From Spartobacteria bacterium (GTDB taxonomy: Bacteria; Verrucomicrobiota; Verrucomicrobiia; Chthoniobacterales; UBA10450): DNA of 64,000 bases. The position numbers and the translations under genes are program-made. The stretch lies in contig PMTM01000004.1 in the NCBI GenBank assembly GCA_003167365.1, positions 62,001 through 126,000 on the forward strand, in the 5' to 3' direction. Each line of letters opens with the position of its first letter. The first letter of the stretch is position 1. The notes under the pieces were generated by a model that worked only from the letters and a program-made list of their open reading frames with translations, was not told where the DNA came from and ran no database searches. Of this stretch, positions 35,942 through 63,830 are shown in pieces.

Positions 35942-35989
35942 CGCGCCCGGAGTGACTCGAACACTCGACCTACGGATTAGAAATCCGTT
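35942..35989. repeat. attL-type end: copy of the 3' part of tRNA-Arg(TCT)
   Basis: These 48 bases match 63757-63804 without a mismatch. They contain the anticodon arm, variable loop, T arm and 3' acceptor strand of the tRNA-Arg gene but lack its 5' part. This is the displaced 3' end expected when an integrase inserts an element into a tRNA gene that stays whole at the other end. Confidence 0.95.
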
Positions 35990-37987: not shown

Positions 37988-38665
37988 ATGGCCCTGATTG
38001 AATGTCCCGAATGTAAGCGCCGTGTATCTGATCAAGCCCAGGCTTGCCCCTCATGCGGTATGCCACTTGCCCCAGGCTCAAAACAAGGAACTCCCCTAAG
38101 CTCGCCACCAAGAAAGGCCGTTAATCCTACCAAACCAAAAAAGACCAATGACCGCTTAGTCGCCTTCTTTGTGATCCTCGGCTTGATTCTCGTTCTCCTG
38201 GCCGGGGCCGAAATCGACCGGCGCGGCTGGATCGGATGGGATGACTTTCCGAATTGGATCTCGCAAATATTCACCACCCCGTCAATCCCACCAGCGTTAG
38301 CACGTCCATCGCTTGCCACGCCAACAATTACGCCCGTCCCCACGCCCGATCCTACGTTACTTCAGGTTGTCCACACCGAATGGGAAAAGGGCGGTTTCGA
38401 TTCAATCGCAATTTGGCACGTCACCTTTTTCAACCGCAGTGACAAGCCAATCGGCAACATTCAGTATCGAACGAGGTATTCCGCAGAAACCGGCGACAAG
38501 GTGGATGCTGGTGGAGTCGATGCGTTACTTGGCGACAACACAATTCGGAAAGTCATCCCACCACACCAAAAGCGCACAATCGAAATCAATGATGGGTTTC
38601 TTCACCACGAAGCCGCTAAAGCGAACTTCCAAGTTGTTTCTTGGGAGTTCGTCAGCAAGCAGTAA
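37988..38665 (+). CDS. Membrane protein with N-terminal zinc ribbon
   Basis: The ATG at 37988 gives 225 residues beginning ALIECPECKRRVSDQAQACPSCG, a zinc ribbon with two CxxC pairs. One transmembrane helix follows (VAFFVILGLILVLLAGAEI, about 62-80), then a Pro/Thr-rich linker and a C-terminal beta domain (VVHTEWEKGGFDSIAIWHVTFFNRSDKP) like a FxLYD-type domain. The zinc ribbon would face the cytoplasm and the beta domain the periplasm. It lies 77 bp before the protease gene and may act with it. Confidence 0.75.
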   Translation: MALIECPECKRRVSDQAQACPSCGMPLAPGSKQGTPLSSPPRKAVNPTKPKKTNDRLVAFFVILGLILVLLAGAEIDRRGWIGWDDFPNWISQIFTTPSIPPALARPSLATPTITPVPTPDPTLLQVVHTEWEKGGFDSIAIWHVTFFNRSDKPIGNIQYRTRYSAETGDKVDAGGVDALLGDNTIRKVIPPHQKRTIEINDGFLHHEAAKANFQVVSWEFVSKQ

Positions 38666-38742
38666 TTCACGCGAGGGGCCTCGCTCAATCTAGAGATGTG
38701 GCTGCTTGTAAGCGCCGTCGCGCTTTGGTAAACGACAACGCA

Positions 38743-41700
38743 ATGCTGAGAGTCTTAATCGGTTTTCTCTGCATGTGCTTCGCAATGCCCGCACATGCGA
38801 AACTTGGCGAAAGCGCGGCGGAGCTAATCAAGCGGTTTGGAAAGCCGTATGCCATCGAGAATCTTAAGATCGGCCAAACGTATAAGTTCCGATCGGAAAA
38901 TGTCAGTGTAGACGCAACCTTCGTGGACGGAGTTTCAGTTGCGGAAACGTACTTTTCTGACCATCCATTAAACCCTTTGGGAGAACCACCGAATGATATC
39001 GTCCAAGCAGTTCTGAGGACGAACGCACCGCAAGCGCGATGGATTGAGATCGAGGCTGGACCATTTGGTGCGGACTACGCGTTGCGATCATCCGATGGGA
39101 AATACATCGCCACTTTAAAATACAGTGGTCCACAACCTGAAAGCGCGATTTGGACAATGACCGTGGCTCAAGCAAGTCTGCTCAGCCCGTCAACGCCTGC
39201 GACGCCCGGTTCTTCTTCTTCTTTGAGTCGGCGGCTTACGCCGGCACCCGCTCCTGGCTACTTGGATCGTGCGATCCAAGAAGCGAATCGAAAGGAGTAC
39301 GAGGCGGCGATCTTGGAATTAACTAAAGCAGTTAAGAAAAATCCAAACGATGCCGAGCTATTGGCCGAGCGAGGCTACAAGCATAGTCTGATTGGTGCTT
39401 ACGACAAAGCAGTCTCGGACTATGAGGCCGCCCTCAAGATCAGGCCGAACGATCACCGGACCGAGCTACGGCTGCAAACAGCGCACGCGATGCTTGCCCT
39501 CGAAGAGGGGACATTGCCAAGCGCAACTCCATTTGAGAAACGGAGCGCTTCGGCGAGTCACCGAATATTTTCGCCTGGCGCGGAAACGTTCTTATCGAAC
39601 GTGATTCGAAGCGCCGGCTTCGGCGGGGCTGGCGTCCTGTATTGCTTCGCTTTGGCACGAGCGTTCAGACAGAAGACATTGAAGTGGATTGGAGCGGCCG
39701 TACTCGCCGCGTTGTTCTTTGGCGTGACTTGCCTTCTTTTCCTTCAAGGTTTGTCGGAACACGCGGGCGGTTCCCGGCGGGAAATCGCCGACGATTTTTC
39801 TGACGGGCAGAGCCGGTTCGCGGCTTACGCGATGAAGCTACGCGAGCGGGCGATGGCCAATCGGCGGCTGGCAAGTGATTCGGCGCAAACCGACGCCCAA
39901 CCAAGTCGCTTTATGCCGTCACCATCGCCGATGCCATTGCCATTTGTCGCAGAGCAGGTGCAGCGTGCGGTAGTACAAATCGCGGGCCTTTCTCCGTCCG
40001 GCGGGTCAGTGGCGAGCGGCACGGGGTTCTTCATCTCCGCCAACGGAAATCTGGTGACGTGCTGGCACGTAGTGTCTGCGGCCAACATCGATCATATTCG
40101 AGTCACGCGAAGCGACGGCTCGCAGTGCGAAATCGAAGGGGTGCTGGGTTTCTCTGCGAAAGATGATTTGGTTTTGCTTAAGACTGCCGTGACTGGGGCG
40201 GATTTCCTGAAGCTACGCGCTTCGCGCGCAGACAAACCCGACGTTGGCACGCGGATTCTCGTTTTCGGGAATCCTGGGCAACTTAGAGGAGTTTGGTCGG
40301 AAGGAGCCGTGTCCGGTTTTGTATTTGACGTTAAATTTGCCAAGCGGGATTCTCTGCGTTTTGACGCGCCGGTAGCACCCGGTTCCAGTGGCTCGCCGGT
40401 CGTGGATACTCACAAAGGCGACGTGCTTGGTATCGCGTCAGCGACCGGTTGGCCGCTCGGCAATTTCGGCGTTCCGTTTTACTACATTACTGATCTGGTC
40501 GATAAGCTGCACGGGTCTACCCCTGTTTCTCTGGCTCAATTCAAAGCGGATCTCGAAAAAGAGAAACCCACAATCAAGCAACACGTTGACGAAAAGGAGC
40601 GCGCAGGGGATTTTATGGAAGCGGGTCAGTTGTGCGATGACTACTCTGCACGATACCCAGGCGACATATGGGGATCGTGGGAGCACGCGCAAATTTCCTT
40701 CGCCTTGGACGATTATAACGCTGCCAGCTTTTACACAGCGCGGTTACAGCCAGCAAAGGGCCCCGGAGACGATCTGCTCTGCGCGATTCAGTTTGAGTCT
40801 GGTAATGCGCTTTTCTGGGCGCCTGCGCAGCGGGAGTGGTTGAAGAGAGTGGCAGAGTTGCTGCACAACGATTATGGCGTGGAAATTTGTACTGTTCAGA
40901 TGCGACCAGATACAGGCGTTAACGTGCGTGCGAAGCCAGATGCCAAGTCCGACGTTCTCTATGAGTTCGACGCCGGTGAGCATGTATTTGCTAAACAAGA
41001 TCGACTTCGCAATTCTGCCGGAAAAGAGAGCGTGACTTGGCGCAAAGTGCTGATGCTGCCGTCACGCGATTACATTCACGGCAGCGAGGGTTGGGTGAAC
41101 GAACGCTACATCGCCCCGTTGAGCATGTCGCTCGTTACAGCAGAACCTTATGAGAAAGCGGCCGCTCGGGGCGACGTCGGCGCTCAGGTTTACTTGGGGA
41201 ATCTGTACACGGAGGGAAAGGGCGTTGCTCAAGACTACAGCAAAGCAGCTGAGCTTTATCGGAAATCAGCCGATCAGGGTAACGCCGCCGGTCAGGCATA
41301 TCTGGGGTCCCTATATGCTGAGGGGAAAGGGGTGCAAAGAGATTATCAGAAAGCGATCGAGCTTTTTCACAACGCCATCGGCCAAGAGTCGTCAGTGGGA
41401 TCTTCTAATGCCTTCAACGATTTTGCATGGTTTCTCGCCACCTGCCCGGACAACTCTCAGCGAAATGGAAATCTAGCTGTCACTTACGCAACCAAGGCGT
41501 GCGAACTCACGCAATGGAAAGACGGGAGTTTTATCGACACTCTTGCAGCTGCTTGTGCCGAGGTCGGCGACTTTGACACAGCCATCAAATATCAGAAACA
41601 GGCAATGGACATACACAGTGATTATCCAGATCGGCGTGAAATGGAAAAAGCTCTCGAACTTTACCAGGAGCGAAAGCCCTATCGTGCGGATAAGAAATCG

Positions 41701-42168
41701 CTCGATGTGGTCGATTATTTCCTTCTGCTTCCGCGAGATTCTTTCGAGATACCACCAGCAGATTTGTTACGTTTTCTCAAGCAACCGAAATGCGGCCTGA
41801 TCGATTTGGCCAACGGTTACATCAGTTGTACGGGGGACAGCGCACAGGCCCCCTTCGAAGTCGCACTGTTCCGTTTTCGCGATGGTAGTCCGCTGGTTGC
41901 AGTTTGTTGGGGCGACCATAGCGAGGAAAGTAGAGAGGATGCGAGAACTGGTTTGGTGTTCCTCGATTTTTTCCGATTAGGTGCAGACAAACAAATGCAC
42001 AAGGTTAGCCGTTCAACCTTTCCAGTCGCGGATGCTGGCGATCGCAAGGGAAACTGGCGATTCGAACTGCCGCGATACGGGCGAACGGTGCTCGTGCGCA
42101 GTCAGCAAAGTGGAGCGATTTTGCACGAACTGAAGTGGAACGGCGCAAAATTTCAGGACGAGAAGTAA
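38743..42168 (+). CDS. Exported trypsin-like serine protease with TPR, SH3 and Sel1 repeats
   Basis: The ATG at 38743 is preferred because MLRVLIGFLCMCFAMPAHA is a signal peptide; 1,141 residues result. In order: an N-terminal small domain, TPRs (about 185-250), hydrophobic helix segments (about 290-340), a HtrA-like protease, further helical repeats, an SH3-like domain (about 745-820), two Sel1 repeats with YAEGKGVQRDYQKAIELF (about 830-900), and a C-terminal beta domain. The triad is visible: His442 in CWHVV, Asp474/475 in KDDLVLLK, Ser549 in GSSGSP. It would be a membrane-anchored periplasmic protease with protein-binding repeats. Role unknown. Confidence 0.82.
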   Translation: MLRVLIGFLCMCFAMPAHAKLGESAAELIKRFGKPYAIENLKIGQTYKFRSENVSVDATFVDGVSVAETYFSDHPLNPLGEPPNDIVQAVLRTNAPQARWIEIEAGPFGADYALRSSDGKYIATLKYSGPQPESAIWTMTVAQASLLSPSTPATPGSSSSLSRRLTPAPAPGYLDRAIQEANRKEYEAAILELTKAVKKNPNDAELLAERGYKHSLIGAYDKAVSDYEAALKIRPNDHRTELRLQTAHAMLALEEGTLPSATPFEKRSASASHRIFSPGAETFLSNVIRSAGFGGAGVLYCFALARAFRQKTLKWIGAAVLAALFFGVTCLLFLQGLSEHAGGSRREIADDFSDGQSRFAAYAMKLRERAMANRRLASDSAQTDAQPSRFMPSPSPMPLPFVAEQVQRAVVQIAGLSPSGGSVASGTGFFISANGNLVTCWHVVSAANIDHIRVTRSDGSQCEIEGVLGFSAKDDLVLLKTAVTGADFLKLRASRADKPDVGTRILVFGNPGQLRGVWSEGAVSGFVFDVKFAKRDSLRFDAPVAPGSSGSPVVDTHKGDVLGIASATGWPLGNFGVPFYYITDLVDKLHGSTPVSLAQFKADLEKEKPTIKQHVDEKERAGDFMEAGQLCDDYSARYPGDIWGSWEHAQISFALDDYNAASFYTARLQPAKGPGDDLLCAIQFESGNALFWAPAQREWLKRVAELLHNDYGVEICTVQMRPDTGVNVRAKPDAKSDVLYEFDAGEHVFAKQDRLRNSAGKESVTWRKVLMLPSRDYIHGSEGWVNERYIAPLSMSLVTAEPYEKAAARGDVGAQVYLGNLYTEGKGVAQDYSKAAELYRKSADQGNAAGQAYLGSLYAEGKGVQRDYQKAIELFHNAIGQESSVGSSNAFNDFAWFLATCPDNSQRNGNLAVTYATKACELTQWKDGSFIDTLAAACAEVGDFDTAIKYQKQAMDIHSDYPDRREMEKALELYQERKPYRADKKSLDVVDYFLLLPRDSFEIPPADLLRFLKQPKCGLIDLANGYISCTGDSAQAPFEVALFRFRDGSPLVAVCWGDHSEESREDARTGLVFLDFFRLGADKQMHKVSRSTFPVADAGDRKGNWRFELPRYGRTVLVRSQQSGAILHELKWNGAKFQDEK

Positions 42169-42547: not shown

Positions 42548-45500
42548 ATGGCTGCTGCGAGCGAAGCGAACCCAATCCTCAACAACCCCTACGAGGAGCC
42601 GTTGCTGCACTACGCCACCAATCTAGAGGGTGAGCTTGATTACTCGAAGGTCGAGAAAAACCGACGCATCTTCGCCGGGGCGCTTCAGACGATTCCTCTC
42701 CCGCAGCGGCGACAACAAGAAGACCTGCTGAAGATGCAGGATTTCGCCGCCACAAACTATGGAACACATTTGGTAAACCTTCTTCGCAAGGAGGTCGCGG
42801 CTTGGCGGGACGCCAAGTATCCGAACACAACTCGCGTCACGCGCGAGCTGCTCCATTTCTGGTTTCTCAACGAAGAACGAGCAGACAACTTAAAACTTTT
42901 CTTCGCGCAGCGCGAAGCCGTCGAAACGGCGATCTACCTGAACGAAGTCGCCGACAAATCCAATCCTGGGCAAAACATCCTGCGGCAGTTGCAAACTGCG
43001 CAAGCCATCTCAGGAGATCCCCAAAGCAATCTTCCCCGCATCGCGTTCAAGATGGCCACGGGCGCGGGGAAGACGGTCGTGATGGCGGCGCTGATCGTTT
43101 ACCAATATTTCAATCGTGTAGAATATCGGAACGACATCCGCTTTGCTGACTGCTTCTTGGTGGTGACCCCAGGCGTAACCATCAAGAACCGACTCGCCGT
43201 CCTTCAAGTCGATCCGCGTACTAGCGCCGACGCACTCGACTATTACTACGCGCGTTGGCTTGTCCCGGCATCGTGGCGGCGAGAACTGCTTCAGATCAAT
43301 GCGCGGTTGGTCATCACGAACTATCACGCGTTCGAACCGAAAACTCTGCAAGGCAACAAACGCTCTCCGTTCGATGGGAAACGTGATTCAGCCGGGAAAA
43401 AGCAGGAAGGCCGCGAGGACTTCAACCAGGTTGTTCGCAGGCTGCTCGGCAACCTCAAGCCGGGATCCCGGTTGTTGATCCTCAACGACGAAGCTCATCA
43501 TTGTTATCTCCCTAAACAAGACAATCGAGTCGCTGAAGGCGAGGATACTGACGAAGAAAACGAACGCGCGGCCGTTTGGTTTAACGGACTGCGTCAAATC
43601 GCACAGCGCTTCAAAGTGCGCCACGTCTACGACCTCAGTGCGACCCCGTACTTCCTGACCGGCTCCGGTTACGAACCCTACACATTGTTCCCTTGGGTTG
43701 TGTCCGACTTCGGTTTGATCGAAGCAATCGAATCCGGCCTCGTGAAGATCCCTTTCCTGCCCACTTCCGACGACACGCAGGCGCTCGAATTGCCCGTGCT
43801 TCGAAACCTATATGAACACGTAAAAGAACGGCTGCCGCGTGCGGGTCAGCGACGCCGGCGCGCAGCAGCCAAGGAAAGGGGCGAAGCGGTTCGCGAGGCC
43901 CCGCCGCACCTCCCGGACACAGTTAAGGCTGCGCTCGCGCAGTTCTATAGGCATTACGAGGAAGAGTTCCATCGACGGAAGCATTCGTTAGGCAGTGACG
44001 GCGAGCGGCAGCTGGAAATGACTGACACGCCACCCGTGTTTATCATCGTATGTAACAATACCTCCGTTTCAAAAGAGGTATTCAAATATATCGCCGGGTA
44101 CGAGCTCACGCCGGCTGAAGAGGGTGAAAAGCCGGAAGTTGTCACCGGAGTTCTCGACCTCCTGTCAAATTTCGACCCCGGTACACAACACCCGCGCACA
44201 AAACCACCGACGCTGCTCATCGACAGCGACGCCCTTGAGAACTCCGGACAAATCGACGGCGATTTTAAGAAGGTCTTTGGTTCCGAAATCGCGAATTTCA
44301 AACGCGACTACGTTCGCATTCACGGTCAAGGCGCTGCTGAAGACATGACCGATGCCGAAATCCTTCGAGAGGTTGTAAATTCTGTAGGTAAGCCAAACTC
44401 GCTTGGCGCTCACATCCGTTGCGTCGTTTCCGTTTCGATGCTGACAGAAGGATGGGATGCGAACACGGTCACCCATATCATGGGACTTCGCGCTTTTGGA
44501 TCGCAGCTTCTGTGTGAACAGGTTGCCGGCAGGGCATTACGTCGAAAGAGCTACTTTCTGCAAGCCTACGATAGGCACGGCAACCCCACTACTGACAAGC
44601 GCCGCATCGCGATTCGAAAGTTCCCTCCTGAGTACGCTCACATCATCGGCGTTCCATTCAAGCTCTTCAAAGGCGGCACGACGAAAGTCCCCGACCCGCC
44701 GGATTACACTCGCGTCTTTGCGCTCAAGGAACGAGAGAAGTTCGAAATCACGTTTCCGAACGTCGACGGCTACCGAATTGAATATCCTGATGGTCCCCTA
44801 AATCGCGATTTCTCCGCCCTCGACGACTACGTCATCGACGGCTCGACCTTGCCGACGCAGACCGTCATGTCCACTGCTGTCAGCGCCGAAACGCAAAAGC
44901 TAACCGTCGTCGATGTCCTCGAACGCCGCGAACAGGAGATCATTTACCTCATCACGAAAGACCTTTTGCGAAACCACTTCTCAACCGATAAAGGCGCACC
45001 AGAGTTCCAAAAATTCCACGAGCTAAAGGCCATCGTCACCGAGTGGTATCACACGAAAGTTCGCGTCCTGGGCAAAGACCCGAAATGGAAAAAGCTTATC
45101 TATTTCCACGATCCCAAACCCATGGTCGATCACGTCGCTCGCGGAATATTCCCCGGCACGTCGCCCGAAGAACGAATCCGTCCGGTCCTGAACTACTACA
45201 ACCCGACCGGCAGCAGCCGCCACGTGAATGGTAACACCACGAAAGACACGTATCCCACTACATCTAGTCATGTGAACGTCGTCGTCGTGGACAGCGGATG
45301 GGAAGGCAAGGCCGCTAAAGCTCTGGATCTAATGGCTGGCGACGGTGAAATTGAGTGTTGGGTGAAGAATAACTTTCTCAGTTTCAAAATTCCTTACGTG
45401 GACAAGGATGGAGTCGAACGTGACTACATGCCCGACTTCATCGTCCACTGCATGACGCAGGCTGGCGATCGAATGAATCTAATCATTGAAATTTCCGGCA

Positions 45501-45703
45501 TGCGTTTCGATAAAACTGCCAAGCGCTGGTTCGTCGAGCACCGGTGGCTCCCCGCCGTAAACAGCGTCGCGGCCAAACACGATTGGAGCCGTTGGGACTT
45601 CCTTGAACTGGACAGTGAAGCAGCCGTCGCCGATCTGCGCGACAAGGTCCTCGGTAAACTTAAGCAGCCATTTACCTCCCTCGCCGAAGTTGCTGTAGCC
45701 TAA
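42548..45703 (+). CDS. Type III restriction Res-like SF2 helicase-nuclease
   Basis: The 1,051-residue protein has a full SF2 helicase core: Walker A ATGAGKT (170-176), DEAH at 314-317, SATPYFLTG, and motif VI-like [10 protein letters not shown] near 660. The C-terminal nuclease region has PDFIVHC (Asp963) and IIEISG (Glu981), where the lysine usual two residues after the glutamate is Ser983. It is the Res partner of the adjacent Mod. It would translocate on unmodified DNA and cut. It is the first gene of six in close series; mod begins 11 bp after its stop. Confidence 0.85.
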
Positions 45704-45714
45704 ATCCGCCTGCT

Positions 45715-48300
45715 ATGCCCAAGCCTCCGAAGCCGATCAAATCCTTTAAGCACAAACACGAGAAACGGGCGCATGTGCCGTCCTCGGAAGAAGCCGGCTA
45801 CGAAGACGCCAATCCAAAAGTTCAGGACGCTTCAGCCGTGGCTTCTTTTCCGCGCAATCCAATCGTTCATCGCGGCCAGGACCCGGAGCTTTTCTGGATG
45901 CACAAGTACGGACCCGAAGACAGGACGATTGCGAGTGACGTGGATATCCGATCGCTTTACCGCCACGAACATATAGCACCGGAACAGCTGATTCGCAGCC
46001 TGTACAAAATTGTAGAAGCCGATCCAAACCAAACCGACTTCTTTCGCGTTAATGAATTGTTCGGGAATGCTCTTTCTCATAGCGAACTCGAAAAAATCGG
46101 CGATTACTACGTCCACTCAGACGGTTGGACGAACCGGCTGATTCAGGGGGACAGCTTGCTGGTGATGACATCCCTCCTCGAGCGAGAAGGCATGGCTGGA
46201 AAAGTACAGTGCATCTATATAGATCCTCCGTACGGGATAAAATACGGATCCAATTGGCAAATCAAAATTAACAACCGCGCGGTAAAGGAGGACGACGACT
46301 CGCTGACCGGCGAGCCGGAAATGATTAAAGCGTATCGCGACACATGGGAGCTCGGCATTCACTCCTATTTAAGCTACCTTCGCGATCGCCTGCTGATCGC
46401 TCGCGACCTCTTGCATGACTCGGGTTCCTGTTTCGTTCAAATGTCGGATGAAAACGTTCACCTGGTCCGTTCCCTAATGGACGAGGTCTTCGGAAGCGGC
46501 AATTTTGTAAGCCTCATTAGTTTCACAACTACAAGTGGGTTCGAAACTACTACATTAGCCCGAAACGGCGACTATCTAATCTGGTATGCGAAAGAAGTAG
46601 CTTCGATAAAGTATCGCCAGCTTTATCTCGAAAAAGATGTTTCGGTTGAAGGCGGACGCTACCGTTGGATTCAATTCGAAGATGGAACGTATCGAGGCCT
46701 AACGGCTCGGGAAATGCGCGGCGAGGACTTGATTCCACCGAAGGCACGATTGTACCAACCCACTAGTCTTATATCTCAAGGAGCCGGCGCTGCTGAATCA
46801 CGTGAATTCAACTACAAGAACAAGATTTATGATTGCGGCGCCGGGAATCATTGGAAAACGACCATTGCTGGTCTAGCCAATCTCGCCAAGGCAGGACGGA
46901 TTCATGTGGCAAGAAATAGCATTCGGTACGTACGATATGCGGACGACTTCCCGTTTCAGCCGATCACGAATTTTTGGGATGATACTGCGACGGGAAACTT
47001 TACAGACGAAAAGATTTATACGGTTCAAACAAATATAAAGGTAATTCAGCGCTGCCTTTTGATGACAACAGATCCGGGCGACTTAGTGCTCGACCCCACG
47101 TGCGGCGCAGGCACCACGGCCTACGCCGCCGAACAATGGGGCCGCCGATGGATAACAGTCGATACATCGCGCATCGCACTGAGCATCGCCAAGACGCGAT
47201 TAGGAACGGCGACTTTTCCTTATTACCAACTTCACGACAGCGAGAGCTGCGATATTCGGCAAGGATTCGTTTACAAGAAAGTCCCACACATCACACTCAA
47301 AAGCATCGCTAACGGCGAGCAACCAGAGGAAGAGCTTCTTTATGACGTGCCAACAGAGGACAAGAAGCGGCTACGGGTCGCAGGCCCTTTTACCGTAGAG
47401 ACACTTCAAAGCTACGAGCCGATTTCACCGGAAGAACTAGCAGCTCGGAGGGATAGTGAAGAAGGACTCGCCGGCTTTGAAGATCTGGTTTTTGAGCATT
47501 TAAAATCTGCTGGCATCAAGACCGGTGACAAGACTGAGAACGCTGTTTTCGTACGCATCGACCGGCTGGCATCATCAAACCTCCATGCCGAAGGTTTCTA
47601 CAATACCCCGGACGGCGAGAAAAAAGCCTACCTTCATATCGGCCCGAAGTTCGGCACGATCAGCAAACGTGCAGTTGAGGAAGCGATCAAGGAGTGTCGA
47701 CAAAAAGGCGACGCAGGCTGGCTGATCATTCTTGGCTTCTCATTCGACTCGGCGATTCAGAACCGGCGTGAAACGTTTTCGATGGGGACATTCGAAGTTA
47801 CGCGCGTCCGAATGCACGATGACCTTTTGCAAGAAGGTCTGCTGAAGAAAGACAAGAAGGCTGCATCCTTCGTCACCATCGGCGAACCCGACATTCGTCT
47901 GCATAAAAACAAGGACGGCACCGGCCAGGTCCAGATCGCCGGCCTAGACATCTACGACCCGATCAAAGACATCGTGAAAAGCCGGGATGTGCACGACATC
48001 GCCTACTGGATGCTCGACGACAACTATGACGGTTCGAATTTCGTCGTTAAACAGGTCTTCTTCTGCGGCGGCGACAAAGACGAATTCGAGGCTTGGAAAA
48101 AGGGAATCGATTCTCTCGCCGCCCAATCCGCCCGTCGCCGCGCGGAGTTAACCCTCAAAATCCAACTCGATGACGAAGCCTTCGGCCGCATCTACGGTCA
48201 CCAAAGTCACCCATTCAAAGCGAAGACGGGGCAGAAGATCGCCGTCCGGGTGATTAGTCAGTTTGGGGAGGAGACAACGAAAGTTCTTCCCGTGGATTAG
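45715..48300 (+). CDS. Type III Mod-like adenine-N6 DNA methyltransferase
   Basis: The 861-residue protein has motif [11 protein letters not shown] at 170-178 and motif I-type DPTCGAGTT at 460-468, the beta-class order used by type III Mod proteins. Between them lies a long region that should include the target-recognition domain. The C-terminal 330 residues ([34 protein letters not shown]) exceed ordinary Mod length and have no motif I know. It would mark host DNA and supply specificity to Res. It lies between res and the GHKL ATPase (5-bp gap). Confidence 0.87.
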
Positions 48301-55139: not shown

Positions 55140-55406
55140 CTACCTATCTTTGGCGTGAGAAAATGGAGGAGTCGTCCCTGCGAATTCGTCTAAAGCGAGC
55201 CTCCTGTTAAATGTAGACACATCCGCCGCCAATATATACCGCCTGTTGGCGATTAAATGCGTCCGTAGCCATCCCCGCTTTTCGTAACGCCACGCTGACG
55301 CCTTGGATAGTCCTGTGATTCCGCAAAAGCGGTGCAACGACATCGGTGGAATGTACTCGGCGGGAACAGTTTTTTGCGCGTTAGCAGAGAAATTCTGTGA
55401 GTTCAT
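55140..55406 (-). CDS. Small excisionase-like DNA-binding protein
   Basis: The 88-residue product has a helix-turn-helix of the excisionase/MerR type: MSLHRFCGITGLSKASAWRYEKRGWLRTHLIANRRYILAADV. It lies opposite to its neighbours, between the Res-to-Vsr operon and the phosphoesterase unit. It may repress one or both, or be a relic of a nested mobile element. Confidence 0.6.
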   Translation of the reverse strand: MNSQNFSANAQKTVPAEYIPPMSLHRFCGITGLSKASAWRYEKRGWLRTHLIANRRYILAADVSTFNRRLALDEFAGTTPPFSHAKDR

Positions 55407-55693
55407 ATGGGCACGCTACAGACGCCACGGACTTAAAATTAAAGTTTTCGCATTTTCTTTGCTTTTCGTTGTACATCAATTCGACGACATTTTCCGGGCA
55501 AAACGCTAGGGCTTTTGGTTTGAAAGGCGTTTGTATTGGGGCGGTAGAAATGTCGTTACTCTTGCACAAATCCTTGCACAACTGTTCGCCATCGCAGAAC
55601 ACGCTTCGAGGAAAGGTTTGACTTGATTAGGCCGGTCGAAGTCGCTAGGACACGGTAGAAATTGCACGTGCCGTTTTACCCCAATTGGCTTCG
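55407..55693. promoter_or_regulatory. Divergent promoter region before the phosphoesterase gene
   Basis: No gene is supported in about 290 bp. Two cttgcacaa units occur at 55561-55582; the same pair lies inverted at 60002-60023, before the DUF5131 gene. Confidence 0.35.
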
Positions 55694-56914
55694 ATGACTC
55701 ACGACAAGGCGAGAATCTGGTTCTTCACAGACGTGCACGGGGCAAACGAATGCTTCCGAAAGTTCCTGAATTCAGTCAAGAATGAAAATAGACCAAACGT
55801 TCTAATTATCGGAGGAGATATTACGGGGAAACAGGTCATTCCTCTTGTCGAAGATGATGTGGGGTGCATTAGCGCGACAGTCGAAGGAGGCGCGGTTAAA
55901 TTTCCTGTCACGAAATTGTCGGACTTCAAGAAACGGCTTTCCGATATTGGTTATTATCCGTACGAATGCAATGAAACGAGCTACAAACGATTTGTAACCG
56001 ATCCGAACTACCATCGGGAGATCATTGATCGTCTTGTCAAAGAGCGCGTAGAGGAATGGGTCAAATTGGCAGATACGCTGCTCCCCTCGCGTGATGAGTG
56101 CCAAGTTTTTATTAATCCTGGAAACGATGATCCCTTCTTTATCGATCCCATTCTCGATGCAAGTTCCAAACTGATTCGTCCAGAAGGTAAGATTTGTGAT
56201 CTTCCGTGCGGATTGAAGATGCTTTCCACGGGCTATTCCAACTGGACGCCGTGGGACTGTCCTAGGCAATGCAAGAATCGGGATGATGAAACAGAACTCC
56301 TAACAAGAATTGCGGAGATGACAGGCCGGCTGTCCGCGCATGATTCTAAGCATTTGCTATTCAATTTCCATTGCCCTCCGCGAGACACCACGCTTGACCT
56401 CGCCAACAAAATTGATCCGAACACAAAACAAAAAGCGGCGGGTTTGAGAGGTGCCGCGAAGGAACACGTGGGTTCTACCGCGGTTCGGCAAGCGATCGAA
56501 GTCTGGCAACCTTTGGTGGGATTACATGGCCATATTCACGAGGTCACTGCAAAGAAGGATAAGATTGGCAATACAATCTGCTTCAATCCTGGAACCGACT
56601 ATTACACCGGACATCTACAGGGAGTTTATTTGCAGATAAACAAGAGGGGCGAAATCGAAGCTGATCTTCTAACAGAAGAACGCTATCCCCGGGTAAAGAA
56701 GAACAAACCTCGATCATTATGGGACGCCCTTCTATCAATAATCCCAGTCGTTGGACCCGCAATTGAAGCGCATCAAAGCAGGACGCTAGATGAAAAGATT
56801 CTTGAGCAGATCACCGAAATTAAAGACGATCTGGAAGAGATGAAGAAGCGAAACATTCCTTCGACGTCGGGCTCAAACATAGATTCTGTAAAATCTAGGG
56901 AGGAAGAGAGATGA
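55694..56914 (+). CDS. Calcineurin-like metallophosphoesterase
   Basis: The ATG at 55694 gives 406 residues. All five metallophosphoesterase blocks are present: FFTDVHG (Asp13, His15), LIIGGDITG, FINPGNDDPFF, LFNFHCPPRD and GLHGHIHEV. After the catalytic domain the chain has a hydrophobic stretch (LLSIIPVVGPAI) and a coiled-coil tail (DEKILEQITEIKDDLEEMKKRN). It hydrolyses a phosphoester, possibly a nucleotide, and may associate with the membrane. The permease gene starts inside its stop codon (ATGA). Confidence 0.82.
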   Translation: MTHDKARIWFFTDVHGANECFRKFLNSVKNENRPNVLIIGGDITGKQVIPLVEDDVGCISATVEGGAVKFPVTKLSDFKKRLSDIGYYPYECNETSYKRFVTDPNYHREIIDRLVKERVEEWVKLADTLLPSRDECQVFINPGNDDPFFIDPILDASSKLIRPEGKICDLPCGLKMLSTGYSNWTPWDCPRQCKNRDDETELLTRIAEMTGRLSAHDSKHLLFNFHCPPRDTTLDLANKIDPNTKQKAAGLRGAAKEHVGSTAVRQAIEVWQPLVGLHGHIHEVTAKKDKIGNTICFNPGTDYYTGHLQGVYLQINKRGEIEADLLTEERYPRVKKNKPRSLWDALLSIIPVVGPAIEAHQSRTLDEKILEQITEIKDDLEEMKKRNIPSTSGSNIDSVKSREEER

Positions 56915-58533
56915 GCGAAGCGACAGCTGCGAGTCCCATTTTTGATCGAGGGAGATCGGGATATGTGCGGGACTTTAACACTCTGGATGTCTTCATATTT
57001 AATGTTATCGGGTTTTCGCTTGGTCTTGCCCTTTCTACGAACCCCTCTTTCATCGGTTCGTTTGCGCCCAGCGCGAACATCATCATTGTTTTGGCGCTTG
57101 GGGCCGTCCTGGCGTTTTTTAATGGCCTAACTTACGGGTGGTTCGGCGGAATCATGCCAAGCACAGGTGGGGATTATATCTTTGTGGGCCGAAGCTTGAG
57201 TCATCGTTTCGGGTTTCTAACGAGCTGGGGTTTTACGGCATGCCAAATTTACGGTCTCGCTTTGAATTTAGGCTTTATTTTGTCGGTGGGAATTGCGCCT
57301 GCCCTTTTGACACTCGGTGTGTCGATGAACAACCAGTCGCTAATTGATATTGGTTTTTCGTTAGGCCGCCCAGACCATGTTGCCATTGGTAGCACGCTTC
57401 TGCTTGTACTTTACTTCTTGCTCGCCTACTTCGAGTTGGGTCTCAATCGGGTCGTGATTTATCTGGCGTTTGTATTCGCACTATTAGGTCCGATTTTGAT
57501 GATCTATACACTCTTCGGCCACACGCACGCGGAGTTCGTGGCCGCATTCAATGCTTTCATGCAGAAACTGAAGGGCGTTCCAAACGCATATGATGTCGTA
57601 ATTGGTACTGCGCGGCAAAACAACATTACGGTTGATCCCAAAGCTATGTGGCATGCGAGTTTGCAGGCTGTGCCTTTGGGCTTTCTTTGTTTTCTAGGAT
57701 TTACTTATTCGGTCTATGTTGGTGGCGAAGTCCGGGAGCCACAGAAGTCTCAAGTTCGCGGGATCCTCTCGGCCTTATTGATCGGAATCTTGGTATTCAT
57801 TCTCGGCATGGGACAATATGTTAACGTTGTTAGCCAAGAATTTCACAGCGCTATTGGCTTCCCGCCGGTCCTAGAGAAACTCGGCTTGACCGCCAATTCC
57901 CTGAACTTTTTCACGGGAATCTTGGCCGTGCATCCGGTAGTTAATCTCGTGATGCAGGTCGGGAATCTTCTTTGGTTCCTACTTATCCCGTACGTGATGA
58001 TACAGGTGTGCACCCATAATTTGATCGCTTGGACATGTGACCGCATGATGCCAGAAGGGCTGCTGGCCAGGGCGGGCACGGCGAATACTCCTTGGCGTGC
58101 ATTTCTCGCCATCTGCGTTGCTGTCTTGTTGTGCATCGCAGCGAATTATTTCTTCGGTTTTACTCTCGTTGGTGCCGTGGCGCTCGCTGCAGTTGCCTTC
58201 TGCTTAACTGGAATAAGTGCGGCATATCTCCCGGCTGAAAGACCGGATGTATTCGCAGGCGCTCGTGGAATGATGCGTAGAAAATTTCTCGGCGTTACAC
58301 TGTTTCAGCTCGTGGGAATCATCGGTGCTGCGGGATTTTCCTGGGTCATTTTCGCCGCAGTGTGGTATCCCGACATCAGCGGCGGAACCCCGGCACGCGC
58401 AATCGTGGTTCTCATTGTTGTATACATCACTGGACTGATTGTTTACGAGGTCAACAAGGCGAAATTGCAGCGGCGTATCGAATCAGTCGGAGTTAATTTA
58501 GATGCGCTGTTCAAAGAGATTCCGAAAGACTAG
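56911..58533 (+). CDS. APC-superfamily permease
   Basis: The 540-residue protein has about 12-14 hydrophobic helices and the amino acid/polyamine permease opening FIFNVIGFSLGLALS, then YGWFGGIMPSTGGDYIFVGR and LGFTYSVYVGGEVREPQKS. N- and C-termini are polar (ends LDALFKEIPKD). Amino acids or other small cations are the usual cargo. It is translationally coupled to a phosphoesterase and followed 18 bp later by a nucleotidyltransferase, which is unusual company for a permease. Confidence 0.8.
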   Translation: MSEATAASPIFDRGRSGYVRDFNTLDVFIFNVIGFSLGLALSTNPSFIGSFAPSANIIIVLALGAVLAFFNGLTYGWFGGIMPSTGGDYIFVGRSLSHRFGFLTSWGFTACQIYGLALNLGFILSVGIAPALLTLGVSMNNQSLIDIGFSLGRPDHVAIGSTLLLVLYFLLAYFELGLNRVVIYLAFVFALLGPILMIYTLFGHTHAEFVAAFNAFMQKLKGVPNAYDVVIGTARQNNITVDPKAMWHASLQAVPLGFLCFLGFTYSVYVGGEVREPQKSQVRGILSALLIGILVFILGMGQYVNVVSQEFHSAIGFPPVLEKLGLTANSLNFFTGILAVHPVVNLVMQVGNLLWFLLIPYVMIQVCTHNLIAWTCDRMMPEGLLARAGTANTPWRAFLAICVAVLLCIAANYFFGFTLVGAVALAAVAFCLTGISAAYLPAERPDVFAGARGMMRRKFLGVTLFQLVGIIGAAGFSWVIFAAVWYPDISGGTPARAIVVLIVVYITGLIVYEVNKAKLQRRIESVGVNLDALFKEIPKD

Positions 58534-58551
58534 ACCACTGTTCCTCTCGAA

Positions 58552-59376
58552 ATGGGACCCAATGCAAAGGCAGATTTTCTTGCTAAATTAGCCAAGACGC
58601 TGATCGATGGAGCCACTGAGCAAAAGATCGAATTAAGAACGTTCGGCGGCATCGGCATCCGAACTCACTGCCAAGGAATAGGTGGCAATGCACTCGCGGC
58701 CCGACCCTACAAGAATTACGACCTCGATTTTGTAGCTGATGCTTCGCGAATACCTTCAGTCCATCGCTTTATGCTTGGGTCGGGACTGGAAATGGCAGAA
58801 TTTGGAGAATATCCTGGCGGCGAGTACCGGCTTTACAAATGGCAACCAAATGGAGAGACGGCTTGCACTATCGACATCTATTTTGGTCGACTGCGTTTTA
58901 ATCACGAGGTCCCATCGCCTTACTTTGATAGGGACAATCAATATACACTGCCGATAACTCAACTTCTGCTCTCAAAACTCGCGATTGTCGAGCTCAACGA
59001 GAAGGATAAAATCGACATAATCTCCATTCTGGCCGAACACGAACTGGGGGATTCAAAGGGAAAGGAAATTTTGCAGACGCGTATTTTGAAAAAGGTTTGG
59101 TGTCGCGGCTGGAAGAGCTGGGGCACCGCAAGAACGTGCCTGCTTAACATCCATGCGGTTCGAGACTATGTTCACGGGCTCTTACCGACGGAAGAGTTGC
59201 CTGCAATGCAAATTTGCGAGAAACTTGATGAATTAGAAGGGGTTATTCTGAAGTGGCCAAAATCTTTCTCGTGGAAAGTAAGGAAACTTTTAGGCCCGAA
59301 AATTGCTTGGTTTAACCAGGTACAACCTGCAAAATCTTGGACCCAAAAATCAGCCAATTTGGCTAAAGGCTCATGA
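58552..59376 (+). CDS. Nucleotidyltransferase-fold protein (AbiEii-like)
   Basis: The 274-residue protein has a minimal nucleotidyltransferase signature: the ELRTFGGIGIRTH loop (Gly32-Gly33) and YKNYDLDFVAD with Asp57 and Asp59, then a third acidic strand in CTIDIYFGRL. It recalls AbiEii/DUF1814 enzymes of toxin-antitoxin and abortive-infection systems. The C-terminal half is helical (LLLSKLAIVELNEKDKIDII). It could transfer a nucleotide to RNA or protein. Its stop overlaps the start of the next gene by 4 bp. Confidence 0.65.
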   Translation: MGPNAKADFLAKLAKTLIDGATEQKIELRTFGGIGIRTHCQGIGGNALAARPYKNYDLDFVADASRIPSVHRFMLGSGLEMAEFGEYPGGEYRLYKWQPNGETACTIDIYFGRLRFNHEVPSPYFDRDNQYTLPITQLLLSKLAIVELNEKDKIDIISILAEHELGDSKGKEILQTRILKKVWCRGWKSWGTARTCLLNIHAVRDYVHGLLPTEELPAMQICEKLDELEGVILKWPKSFSWKVRKLLGPKIAWFNQVQPAKSWTQKSANLAKGS

Positions 59377-59879
59377 AAACACAATGCAGCTCGTTCGATA
59401 AGTCCCCAAGGGGCGTGAAGCTTCAGCATCGAATCCCGAGTCGCTTAAAGAACTACGATATGTCTTTCGTTCTCGACAAACTGATTGCGGAGCATCGTAT
59501 TCCGGCCGCCAAAAAAAACCTCTTAGAACGTGAGTTCAAAAGGTTCATTGCTTTGGTAGGAATTGGCGTGCATCCGTTGGCGATGATTGGCCCGTTTGTC
59601 GATGAGGTGTGGCATCAGTTCATTTTATTTACCCGCCAATACAAGGAATTTTGTGACTCTACCGTGGGTCACTTCGTTAGCCACCAACCGGATACTCCCG
59701 CTACGCCGGTCCCACAAGAAGCAGGTGAAAACTTTCGATCAGCGTATAGACATCACTTCGGTCGCCTTCCCAGTATTTGGTTTGAAGGAATGAACAACGA
59801 AACCAAGCGCTACTATCAACAACCTGTCTTAGTTGGTAAACCGCCCACAAGCTGGTCGGGATGGGCTGGTCCTGAGTAA
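59373..59879 (+). CDS. GRDP-like protein with His-Trp motif
   Basis: The ATG at 59373 overlaps the upstream stop; a second ATG at 59460 is also possible. The 168-residue protein has FVDEVWHQFILFTRQYKEFCDSTVGHFVSHQP, the repeat found in glycine-rich-domain (GRDP/DUF1399-like) proteins, where it forms a helical bundle. The C-terminus (FGRLPSIWFEG, LVGKPPTSWSGWAG) is Gly/Trp-rich. Function unknown; the tight coupling suggests it serves the nucleotidyltransferase. Confidence 0.6.
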   Translation: MKTQCSSFDKSPRGVKLQHRIPSRLKNYDMSFVLDKLIAEHRIPAAKKNLLEREFKRFIALVGIGVHPLAMIGPFVDEVWHQFILFTRQYKEFCDSTVGHFVSHQPDTPATPVPQEAGENFRSAYRHHFGRLPSIWFEGMNNETKRYYQQPVLVGKPPTSWSGWAGPE

Positions 59880-62484: not shown

Positions 62485-63618
62485 CTAAGCGCGCGCCATG
62501 AGCGGCACGATCTTCTCTTTTGCCGCTGGCCTGATGTTCCAGTACCGCTCCGCCTCCTTCGGCTTAACGAGCTGGCGGTAGTGCTCGAAGATCATGCCGC
62601 CGTCGGTGTGTCCCATTTCGAGCGCGAGCGCGGCAACGTCTTTGAAGTGCGCCAAGTGATAGCTCGCGAACGAGTGTCGCAATGCGTTATCCGGCCACTC
62701 CGCGATGCCAGCCGCTGTGCGTGCCGCGTTGAACAGTTTGCGGAAATCGCTTGGTGTGACTTTGCCTCTGAGCTTCCGCGTTGGCAGCAGCCAATCGCGC
62801 AGATTCGGCTGCATCTTCACGAAACGTCGCCGGGCCGTTTTAGCCTTCTCTGCCGTGACTTCGATCAGATCGCTGTCGAATTGAACGTCTGACCAATCCA
62901 GCCGCTCCAGCTCAGCGCGGCGCAGTCCGGCAAACGCGCCGATCGTTACATACGGCAGCAACTCCGGCGAAGCAGCTTCGAGAAGGCGAGCCGTCTGAGT
63001 GATGGTGAGAATGCCCGGAATCTGATCAACAACCTTTGCCTTCGCAGTGTTCTCCGCTGGATTGCTGGTCGCGTAGCTGCACCGCATGGCATGGTTGAAC
63101 ATCACGACGAGCACGCGCCGGAAGTTGTTGCGTGAGATTGGCGAGACTTGGAGCGCACGCAACCAGTTGTCGATTTGCGCGCTTGTGATTGTCGCAACTA
63201 ATTGCCCGTCGAACTCGCGTGCGAAACGGTTGAGACGGGAACGTAAATCTTCCAGGTATCGCTTGCTCGCGCCGTCCGCTTTCTTGGCTGCGATCAGTTC
63301 GCCAACCAGAGTCGTTGTTGTGCAACTTTTCTCGCTCGCTTTCAAATGGGCGACCAAAAAGTCTGTCGCGTCTTTGAGCGTTTTGCCGTAGCCGCTCAGC
63401 CGTTCCGCGCACTCTTGCGCCATCTCCCGCAGCCGCGACGAAAACTCCGCGCCTTCAAGTCCAGACTTGCGTAGCTGCGCGTTCTTGAAAGCGGCAAATG
63501 CGCTGGCTTGCTCTTTTGTCTCGAAAAAACTGCGCTTCCGTTTTCCGGCCTCTCGGTAGTTCACTACGAACTTGAGCCGCGGATGCTTGTATTTTCTCAC
63601 CTGAAACCGTTTTCTCAT
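62485..63618 (-). CDS. int: Tyrosine recombinase (integrase) of the island
   Basis: The 377-residue protein has an N-terminal DNA-binding part (KYKHPRLKFVVNYREAGKRKRSFF), a SAM-like core-binding domain (about 70-170), and a catalytic domain. The latter has FAGLRRAELERLDW (first Arg), ALRHSFASY (second Arg and His), LEMGHTDG and the tyrosine in IFEHYRQL. The residue three before the second Arg is Asn rather than His. It lies 139 bp from the intact tRNA-Arg and is oriented away from it, the standard arrangement for an element inserted into a tRNA 3' end. Confidence 0.93.
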   Translation of the reverse strand: MRKRFQVRKYKHPRLKFVVNYREAGKRKRSFFETKEQASAFAAFKNAQLRKSGLEGAEFSSRLREMAQECAERLSGYGKTLKDATDFLVAHLKASEKSCTTTTLVGELIAAKKADGASKRYLEDLRSRLNRFAREFDGQLVATITSAQIDNWLRALQVSPISRNNFRRVLVVMFNHAMRCSYATSNPAENTAKAKVVDQIPGILTITQTARLLEAASPELLPYVTIGAFAGLRRAELERLDWSDVQFDSDLIEVTAEKAKTARRRFVKMQPNLRDWLLPTRKLRGKVTPSDFRKLFNAARTAAGIAEWPDNALRHSFASYHLAHFKDVAALALEMGHTDGGMIFEHYRQLVKPKEAERYWNIRPAAKEKIVPLMARA

Positions 63619-63756
63619 GACTTATCCATTGCCATTCTATTGCCCTATTTACAAGTAAAATCGCGTTAAAATGGGGTTTTCGTGTCAGAACGAGTCACTC
63701 AAGCGAATGCGTGTTGCTCCTCGTTTTTACCTATGAAAAGGCGATTTTAGAGGGTG

Positions 63757-63804
63757 CGCGCCCGGAGTGACTCGAACACTCGACCTACGGATTAGAAATC
63801 CGTT
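63757..63804. repeat. attR-type end within tRNA-Arg
   Basis: These 48 bases are identical to 35942-35989 and cover the tRNA from the base before the anticodon stem through the discriminator position. Together the pair bounds a 27.8-kb element. Confidence 0.95.
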
Positions 63805-63830
63805 GCTCTATCCGGCTGAGCTACGGGCGC
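63758..63830 (-). tRNA. tRNA-Arg (anticodon TCT)
   Basis: The 73-nt gene folds as a full cloverleaf. The acceptor is gcgcccg/cgggcgc, the D stem gctc/gagc, the anticodon stem acgga/tccgt with loop tttctaa, and the T stem gagtg/cactc with loop ttcgagt. Anticodon TCT reads AGA. No CCA is encoded. It is the integration target of the island and remains intact. Confidence 0.96.

Follow-up and report, generated by a model that had tools for sequence, protein, structure and literature searches.

A permease, a nucleotidyltransferase and a phosphoesterase form a gene set that is kept together across distant archaea and bacteria, and the copy in the window (the whole stretch of 64,000 nucleotides analysed here, from a Spartobacteria bacterium) is a rare four-gene version of this module on a mobile island. 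The part families are known, but the conserved assembly matched no known kind that we found, and we therefore regard the set as new. The literature searched, which covers few subscription journals, held no paper pairing all three families and no description of the unit, in line with the original prediction that the system is of unknown kind. The case is built on the operon and the island that carries it, on the conserved linkage of the genes, and on the intact catalytic residues and folds of their products.

The operon and its island

The four genes lie on the forward strand at 55694-56914 (a metallophosphoesterase of 406 residues), 56911-58533 (an APC-superfamily permease of 540 residues), 58552-59376 (a small nucleotidyltransferase with an ANT(2'')/LnuA-like fold) and 59373-59879 (a GRDP-like small protein of 168 residues). 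Their spacings of -4, +18 and -4 bp are exactly those from which a single operon had been predicted, and the unit is real. The first gene starts with an ATG at 55694, with an in-frame TTG at 55685. Promoter and terminator scans gave no excess over shuffled sequences. Upstream of the unit, on the opposite strand (55140-55406), there is a small helix-turn-helix-like open reading frame that could encode an excisionase or a regulator.

The unit is carried by an integrative island of 27.8 kb (35942-63804) at a tRNA-Arg gene. A repeat search found a 48-bp perfect repeat at its ends: attL, at the left end (35942-35989), is a perfect copy of the 3' half of tRNA-Arg, and attR (63757-63804), identical to attL, lies inside the tRNA-Arg gene itself (63756-63830, reverse strand). 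An integrase of the tyrosine-recombinase type, named from its sequence (62485-63618, reverse strand), adjoins the tRNA-Arg gene and the att repeat. The G+C content is 0.49-0.54 within the island and mostly 0.55-0.58 outside it. A ResIII protein and an N6/N4 methylase stand in tandem at 42548-48300, resembling a type III restriction-modification system, and the cargo further includes an ATPase with a type II restriction-like match, a UvrD-like helicase, a Vsr nuclease, a radical-SAM/TcmP pair (PDC-M30) and a C5-methyltransferase, the last likewise named from sequence. This restriction-type cargo on an att-bounded island bears out the defence-island setting that had been proposed. Just inside the left end, at 38641-42168, we also observed a gene for a 1175-residue protein with a trypsin-like domain and TPR and Sel1 repeats, which is possibly a protease-type defence gene.

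Conservation of the three-gene module

Among 72,556 plasmids the phosphoesterase has only two matches, from the archaeon Halobellus limi and from Thermomicrobium roseum. The only two plasmid matches of the permease are those same records, the sole plasmid match of the nucleotidyltransferase is the Halobellus limi record, and on both plasmids the module genes stand side by side. Genome contigs were scanned with an alignment of three phosphoesterases (from the window and the two plasmids), which gave 74 loci, or 77 when the window and the plasmids are included. Because the phosphoesterase alone served as the query, the neighbouring genes are an independent result. An APC-clade permease lies near the phosphoesterase in 68 of the 77 loci (median gap 59 bp), the nucleotidyltransferase is present in 63 (median gap 14 bp), and the complete trio occurs in 57, the window and 56 others, in nine arrangements of order and strand. 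Several of the incomplete loci are cut by contig ends, and some (L004, L027 and L072) have no nucleotidyltransferase despite long flanks. Judged by the names in the record titles, the archaeal loci come from Halobacteria, Thermoproteota, Nitrososphaeria, Thermoplasmata, Theionarchaea and others, and the bacterial ones from Chloroflexota, Spirochaetota, Actinomycetota, Bacteroidota, Ignavibacteria and others.

The linkage also holds in 14 whole genomes, where a clade permease is no more than 3 kb away for 18 of 20 phosphoesterases, and 18 of 22 clade permeases adjoin a phosphoesterase; these genomes were picked for holding the module, so the figures tell how often copies stray, not how frequent the module is. 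By simple arithmetic, the chance expectation for such proximity is about 0.1 at 30 APC matches per 60 Mb. Pairwise distances of the three proteins are correlated over 52 loci (r = 0.86, 0.88 and 0.73), and since shared species history contributes to this correlation, it demonstrates joint inheritance rather than contact.

Taken as coincidental cargo, the unit would be four unrelated genes that the island has gathered along with the rest of its mixed contents. We give this almost no credence, because the trio clusters in many orders across two domains of life and all four genes recur in identical order in another phylum; a chance operon is ruled out by the conservation of linkage.

The phosphoesterase and the nucleotidyltransferase

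The first gene product belongs to the calcineurin-like metallophosphoesterases (PF00149, 27.6 bits against a cut-off of 21.5). Its metal-ligand residues D13, H15, D42, N144, H226, H280 and H282 are present in the window and kept in 97-100% of the 77 loci; when the catalytic acids of the nucleotidyltransferase are counted with them, conservation is 95-100% of loci, and the window has every one. The predicted fold is nearest to aq_1956 (Z 23.3), followed by TT1561 (Z 22.2). Beyond a catalytic domain of about residues 1-330, the protein continues for some 75 residues, in which a helical extension (about 340-386) is predicted with modest confidence, so that the tail already remarked on in the original prediction is real. 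Comparison among the module loci found this C-terminal extension only in the window and in a four-gene locus of a Mucilaginibacter metagenome-assembled genome (MAG).

The nucleotidyltransferase of the window had no match when searched alone against Pfam, whereas 23 of 38 relatives matched NTP_transf_5, a name not found in the literature searched. The conserved residues G32, D57, D59, D108, K142, D152 and D155 are all present in the window protein, and its model (pLDDT 89) is most similar to ANT(2'')-Ia (Z 13.8, rmsd 3.0 over 154 residues) and LnuA (Z 12.6), with MenT1 and MenT3 next in the ranking (Z about 9-11.6). With G32-G33, D57, D59 and D108 in place and the right fold, it is a small nucleotidyltransferase of the pol-beta type. 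The earlier description of this protein as AbiEii-like thus stands at the level of the superfamily and fails at that of the family, as the window protein does not match PF08843.

The MenT similarity raises the question of an RNA-directed toxin-antitoxin system, in which the nucleotidyltransferase would modify tRNA as MenT toxins do, the phosphoesterase or another partner would be the antidote and the permease would be a passenger. We consider this highly unlikely: no partner accompanies the phosphoesterase more constantly than the permease, no antitoxin gene was recognised next to the nucleotidyltransferase, and the Pfam AbiEii family is matched by a single one of the 38 relatives (E = 0.011). 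In the window its neighbours are the permease and the 168-residue protein of no known family, and the neighbourhoods of the relatives have no antitoxin-like gene in common.

Two further observations concern this gene. Copies apart from the permease and phosphoesterase occur in module-bearing genomes (L095, L096, L097 and L098). At L015 (4285-7008), the nucleotidyltransferase is part of a 907-residue open reading frame whose upstream part is a separate kinase-SIS gene in L017; this is either a natural fusion or the result of a lost stop codon.

The permease and its genomic neighbours

The predicted 540-residue APC permease was confirmed by a match above the cut-off to PF00324 (44.1 bits, cut-off 24.6, residues 33-511) and by one to PF13520 (43 bits), and its identification as the module permease agrees with its near-exclusive linkage to the phosphoesterase and with its terminal motifs. 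These motifs, F.R...G..R at the N-terminus and G[IV]D...[YF].EIP at the C-terminus, are a hallmark of the clade. The C-terminal motif also occurs in clade permeases unlinked to both enzymes (L089-L092), and since the motifs are kept in members far from the enzymes they prove nothing as targets of nucleotidylation. By profile, the closest solved permeases are the bacterial amino acid transporter 5oqt/6f34 and CAT1, and we infer that the substrate is an amino compound.

The three-gene form is found mainly beside genes of amine and amino-acid catabolism, the kind varying by locus. In descriptive counts made without a matched background, the leading Pfam families among 109 neighbouring proteins are class-III aminotransferase (6), iron alcohol dehydrogenase (5), aldehyde dehydrogenase (3) and ABC ATPase (3), followed by MttB, glutamate dehydrogenase, FAD amine/amino-acid oxidase and M20 peptidase (2 each). 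Arginine deiminase with OTC, asparaginase and aldehyde ferredoxin oxidoreductase each appear at single loci. The window copy has no catabolic neighbour. That the catabolic enzymes change while the trio stays constant suggests that the two enzymes serve the permease and not one substrate.

Some neighbourhoods have a character of their own. In L011, L013 and L017 a PfkB kinase and a SIS protein, fused in L017, lie between the permease and the nucleotidyltransferase, and a SLOG-family protein lies 3' of the phosphoesterase, joined in L011 by a BtpA-family protein; these loci are a fructosamine-like catabolic cluster around the module. An Ignavibacteria locus (L009, 1300-7960) holds two phosphoesterases, the permease, the nucleotidyltransferase and an FGE-sulfatase/phosphoesterase fusion, together with a class II tRNA-synthetase-like protein and an asparaginase.

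The main rival to a role in controlling the permease is chemistry on the substrate itself. The imported amino compound would be nucleotidylated, and thereby trapped or activated, much as ANT(2'') and LnuA adenylylate the hydroxyls of antibiotics, and the phosphoesterase would later free the NMP. The best structural matches of the nucleotidyltransferase are indeed small-molecule adenylyltransferases, and the SLOG-family protein (possibly of the NMP-cleaving LOG type) and the sugar kinase/SIS gene that cluster with some loci would fit such a pathway. However, the catabolic enzymes vary widely between loci, and none of the enzymes observed is known to use a nucleotidylated substrate. We judge this explanation possible but on the doubtful side.

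The four-gene form

The fourth gene encodes a small protein with the motif VDExWHxFILxTxxYxxFC and is absent from all module loci other than the window and the Mucilaginibacter locus (L008), which has a 54% identical homologue at the equivalent place. It matched no model of Pfam, PADLOC, NCBIfam or PHROG; in Pfam, the window protein had no match at E = 1 or below, and four homologues had none at 0.1 or below. The GRDP label that it was given at the outset thus finds no backing in Pfam, and the name reflects a supposed resemblance to PF07173; in the literature searched, GRDP led to plant papers only.

Whether the order of all four genes is kept in other islands had been put forward as a check on the unit, and one further case was found, in another phylum and beside a defence island. 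This is the Mucilaginibacter copy, whose products are 52% (phosphoesterase), 49% (permease), 29% (nucleotidyltransferase) and 54% (GRDP-like protein) identical to those of the window. No more four-gene copies turned up among 288 further genomes from the window's phylum or 399 further ones from the order to which the Mucilaginibacter MAG belongs. The Mucilaginibacter copy adjoins an RteC gene, and within about 16 kb there are Lamassu LmuB/LmuC, E1-JAB, patatin (named from sequence), MBL, HNH and Mrr-type genes. A defence island in a Mucilaginibacter MAG (L109, 221-14258) holds LmuC, LmuB, a patatin-like protein, an E1-JAB fusion with two MBL-fold proteins, an Mrr-type nuclease and an HNH protein. 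With copies in two phyla, the four-gene form has probably moved on mobile elements, and a role in defence is possible, no more.

An anti-phage role of the four-gene form is suggested by these two copies (n = 2). As an anti-phage or island stress system, the mobile form would, upon infection, shut or open the permease by making or clearing a nucleotidyl mark. Both copies, from different phyla, have defence genes as neighbours, those of restriction in the window and those of Lamassu, E1-JAB, patatin and Mrr type in the Mucilaginibacter MAG, both have the extra tail and the GRDP-like gene, and the nucleotidyltransferases have diverged more than the other three proteins. Yet there are two examples only, the divergence of the nucleotidyltransferase pair is only about 1.9 SD from expectation, and the wider family sits in a metabolic context. 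In PADLOC-DB the first gene alone was matched, to PDC-S10 at 4e-5 over 44 residues, a short, weak stretch, and none of the four proteins otherwise matched a PADLOC system. Nor is there a close viral or phage-borne relative: 50,697 phage records held no relative of the unit proteins, viral contigs gave six distant phosphoesterases only and no GRDP-like relative, and PHROGs gave generic permease and phosphoesterase matches only. We consider the anti-phage reading decidedly unlikely. As a role for the module in general it is unsupported, with no PADLOC system, no phage relative and the three-gene form beside catabolic genes. The confinement of permease-phosphoesterase pairs to core metabolic loci, which was to count against the original prediction, holds for most relatives and not for the two four-gene copies. 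Fast evolution of the nucleotidyltransferase as a sign of an arms race was considered and is not claimed, given the size of the deviation.

Discussion

The explanation that we favour, tentatively and as something quite possible though short of probable, is that the four genes are the mobile form of a widespread module for the uptake of amino compounds, switched by the nucleotidyltransferase and the phosphoesterase as opposing writer and eraser. The permease would import an amine or amino-acid-like substrate; the nucleotidyltransferase would add a nucleotidyl group, probably AMP or UMP, to the permease or its gate; and the phosphoesterase would hydrolyse the resulting phosphodiester, so that the joint action of the two enzymes would switch uptake according to the state of nucleotides or nutrients. 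The helical tail of the phosphoesterase and the GRDP-like protein would be gains of the mobile form, perhaps as tethering or sensing parts, and this form may have been re-used. That the two enzymes oppose each other is conjecture, as is the proposed target of nucleotidylation.

That the enzyme pair stays the same while the catabolic enzymes next to it change is easier to reconcile with control of the permease than with chemistry on a single substrate, and the linkage of the trio, the near-invariant catalytic residues and the correlated distances are all consistent with such a switch. On the other hand, the C-terminal motif of the permease is shared with enzyme-unlinked clade members, the closest fold relatives of the nucleotidyltransferase modify small molecules and not membrane proteins, and the window copy stands without a catabolic neighbour. 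Moreover, in the loci that lack the nucleotidyltransferase despite long flanks the switch would need to work without the enzyme or with a distant copy. The earlier suggestion of a nucleotide made or cleared to act on the permease survives in that the genes are best read as a permease and an enzyme pair working together, while the mechanism is one that we infer. A bolder version, unlikely in our judgement, is that this is an undescribed switch, spread from archaea to bacteria, that writes and erases a permease mark and has been taken up by islands, with two added parts, as a device for defence or host control.

That the trio has stayed together through many rearrangements, with a permease next to two catalytically intact enzymes of opposing sense, suggests that amine uptake involves a step of control or activation. 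Should the permease prove to be the target of the enzymes, transport would be regulated in a new way; should the mobile form give protection from phage, immunity would be tied to nutrient permeases.

Comparison with known systems

In PII/AmtB nitrogen control, GlnD uridylylates the regulator of a permease. The proposed switch would be similar in its reversible nucleotidyl transfer controlling the uptake of nitrogen compounds, by analogy only; no PII, AmtB or GlnD-type gene was seen in the four-gene unit. With AbiEii and MenT toxins the nucleotidyltransferase has the superfamily fold in common, but the window protein differs from them in lacking a Pfam AbiEii match and a recognisable antitoxin partner and in its neighbourhood. 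It shares the pol-beta-type core and catalytic acids with ANT(2'')-Ia, LnuA and Pfam NTP_transf_5, and is set apart from these by an extra C-terminal helical part, an identity of 12-17% and its constant permease and phosphoesterase neighbours.

The phosphoesterase resembles Icc/MPPED2-like enzymes (aq_1956, TT1561, MPPED2 and Rv0805) in its fold (Z 17-23) and metal-ligand motifs. However, it represents a family of about 320 residues with a GNDD motif and its own invariant residues (Y88, W122, TPW at 185-187, R191 and D235), to which the window copy adds the C-terminal helical extension. Similarly, the permease shares its Pfam domain and its length of about 540 residues with the APC amino-acid transporters, among which 5oqt/6f34 and CAT1 are its nearest solved relatives by profile, but it belongs to a clade apart, which is marked by distinctive motifs at both termini and is firmly associated with two enzymes.
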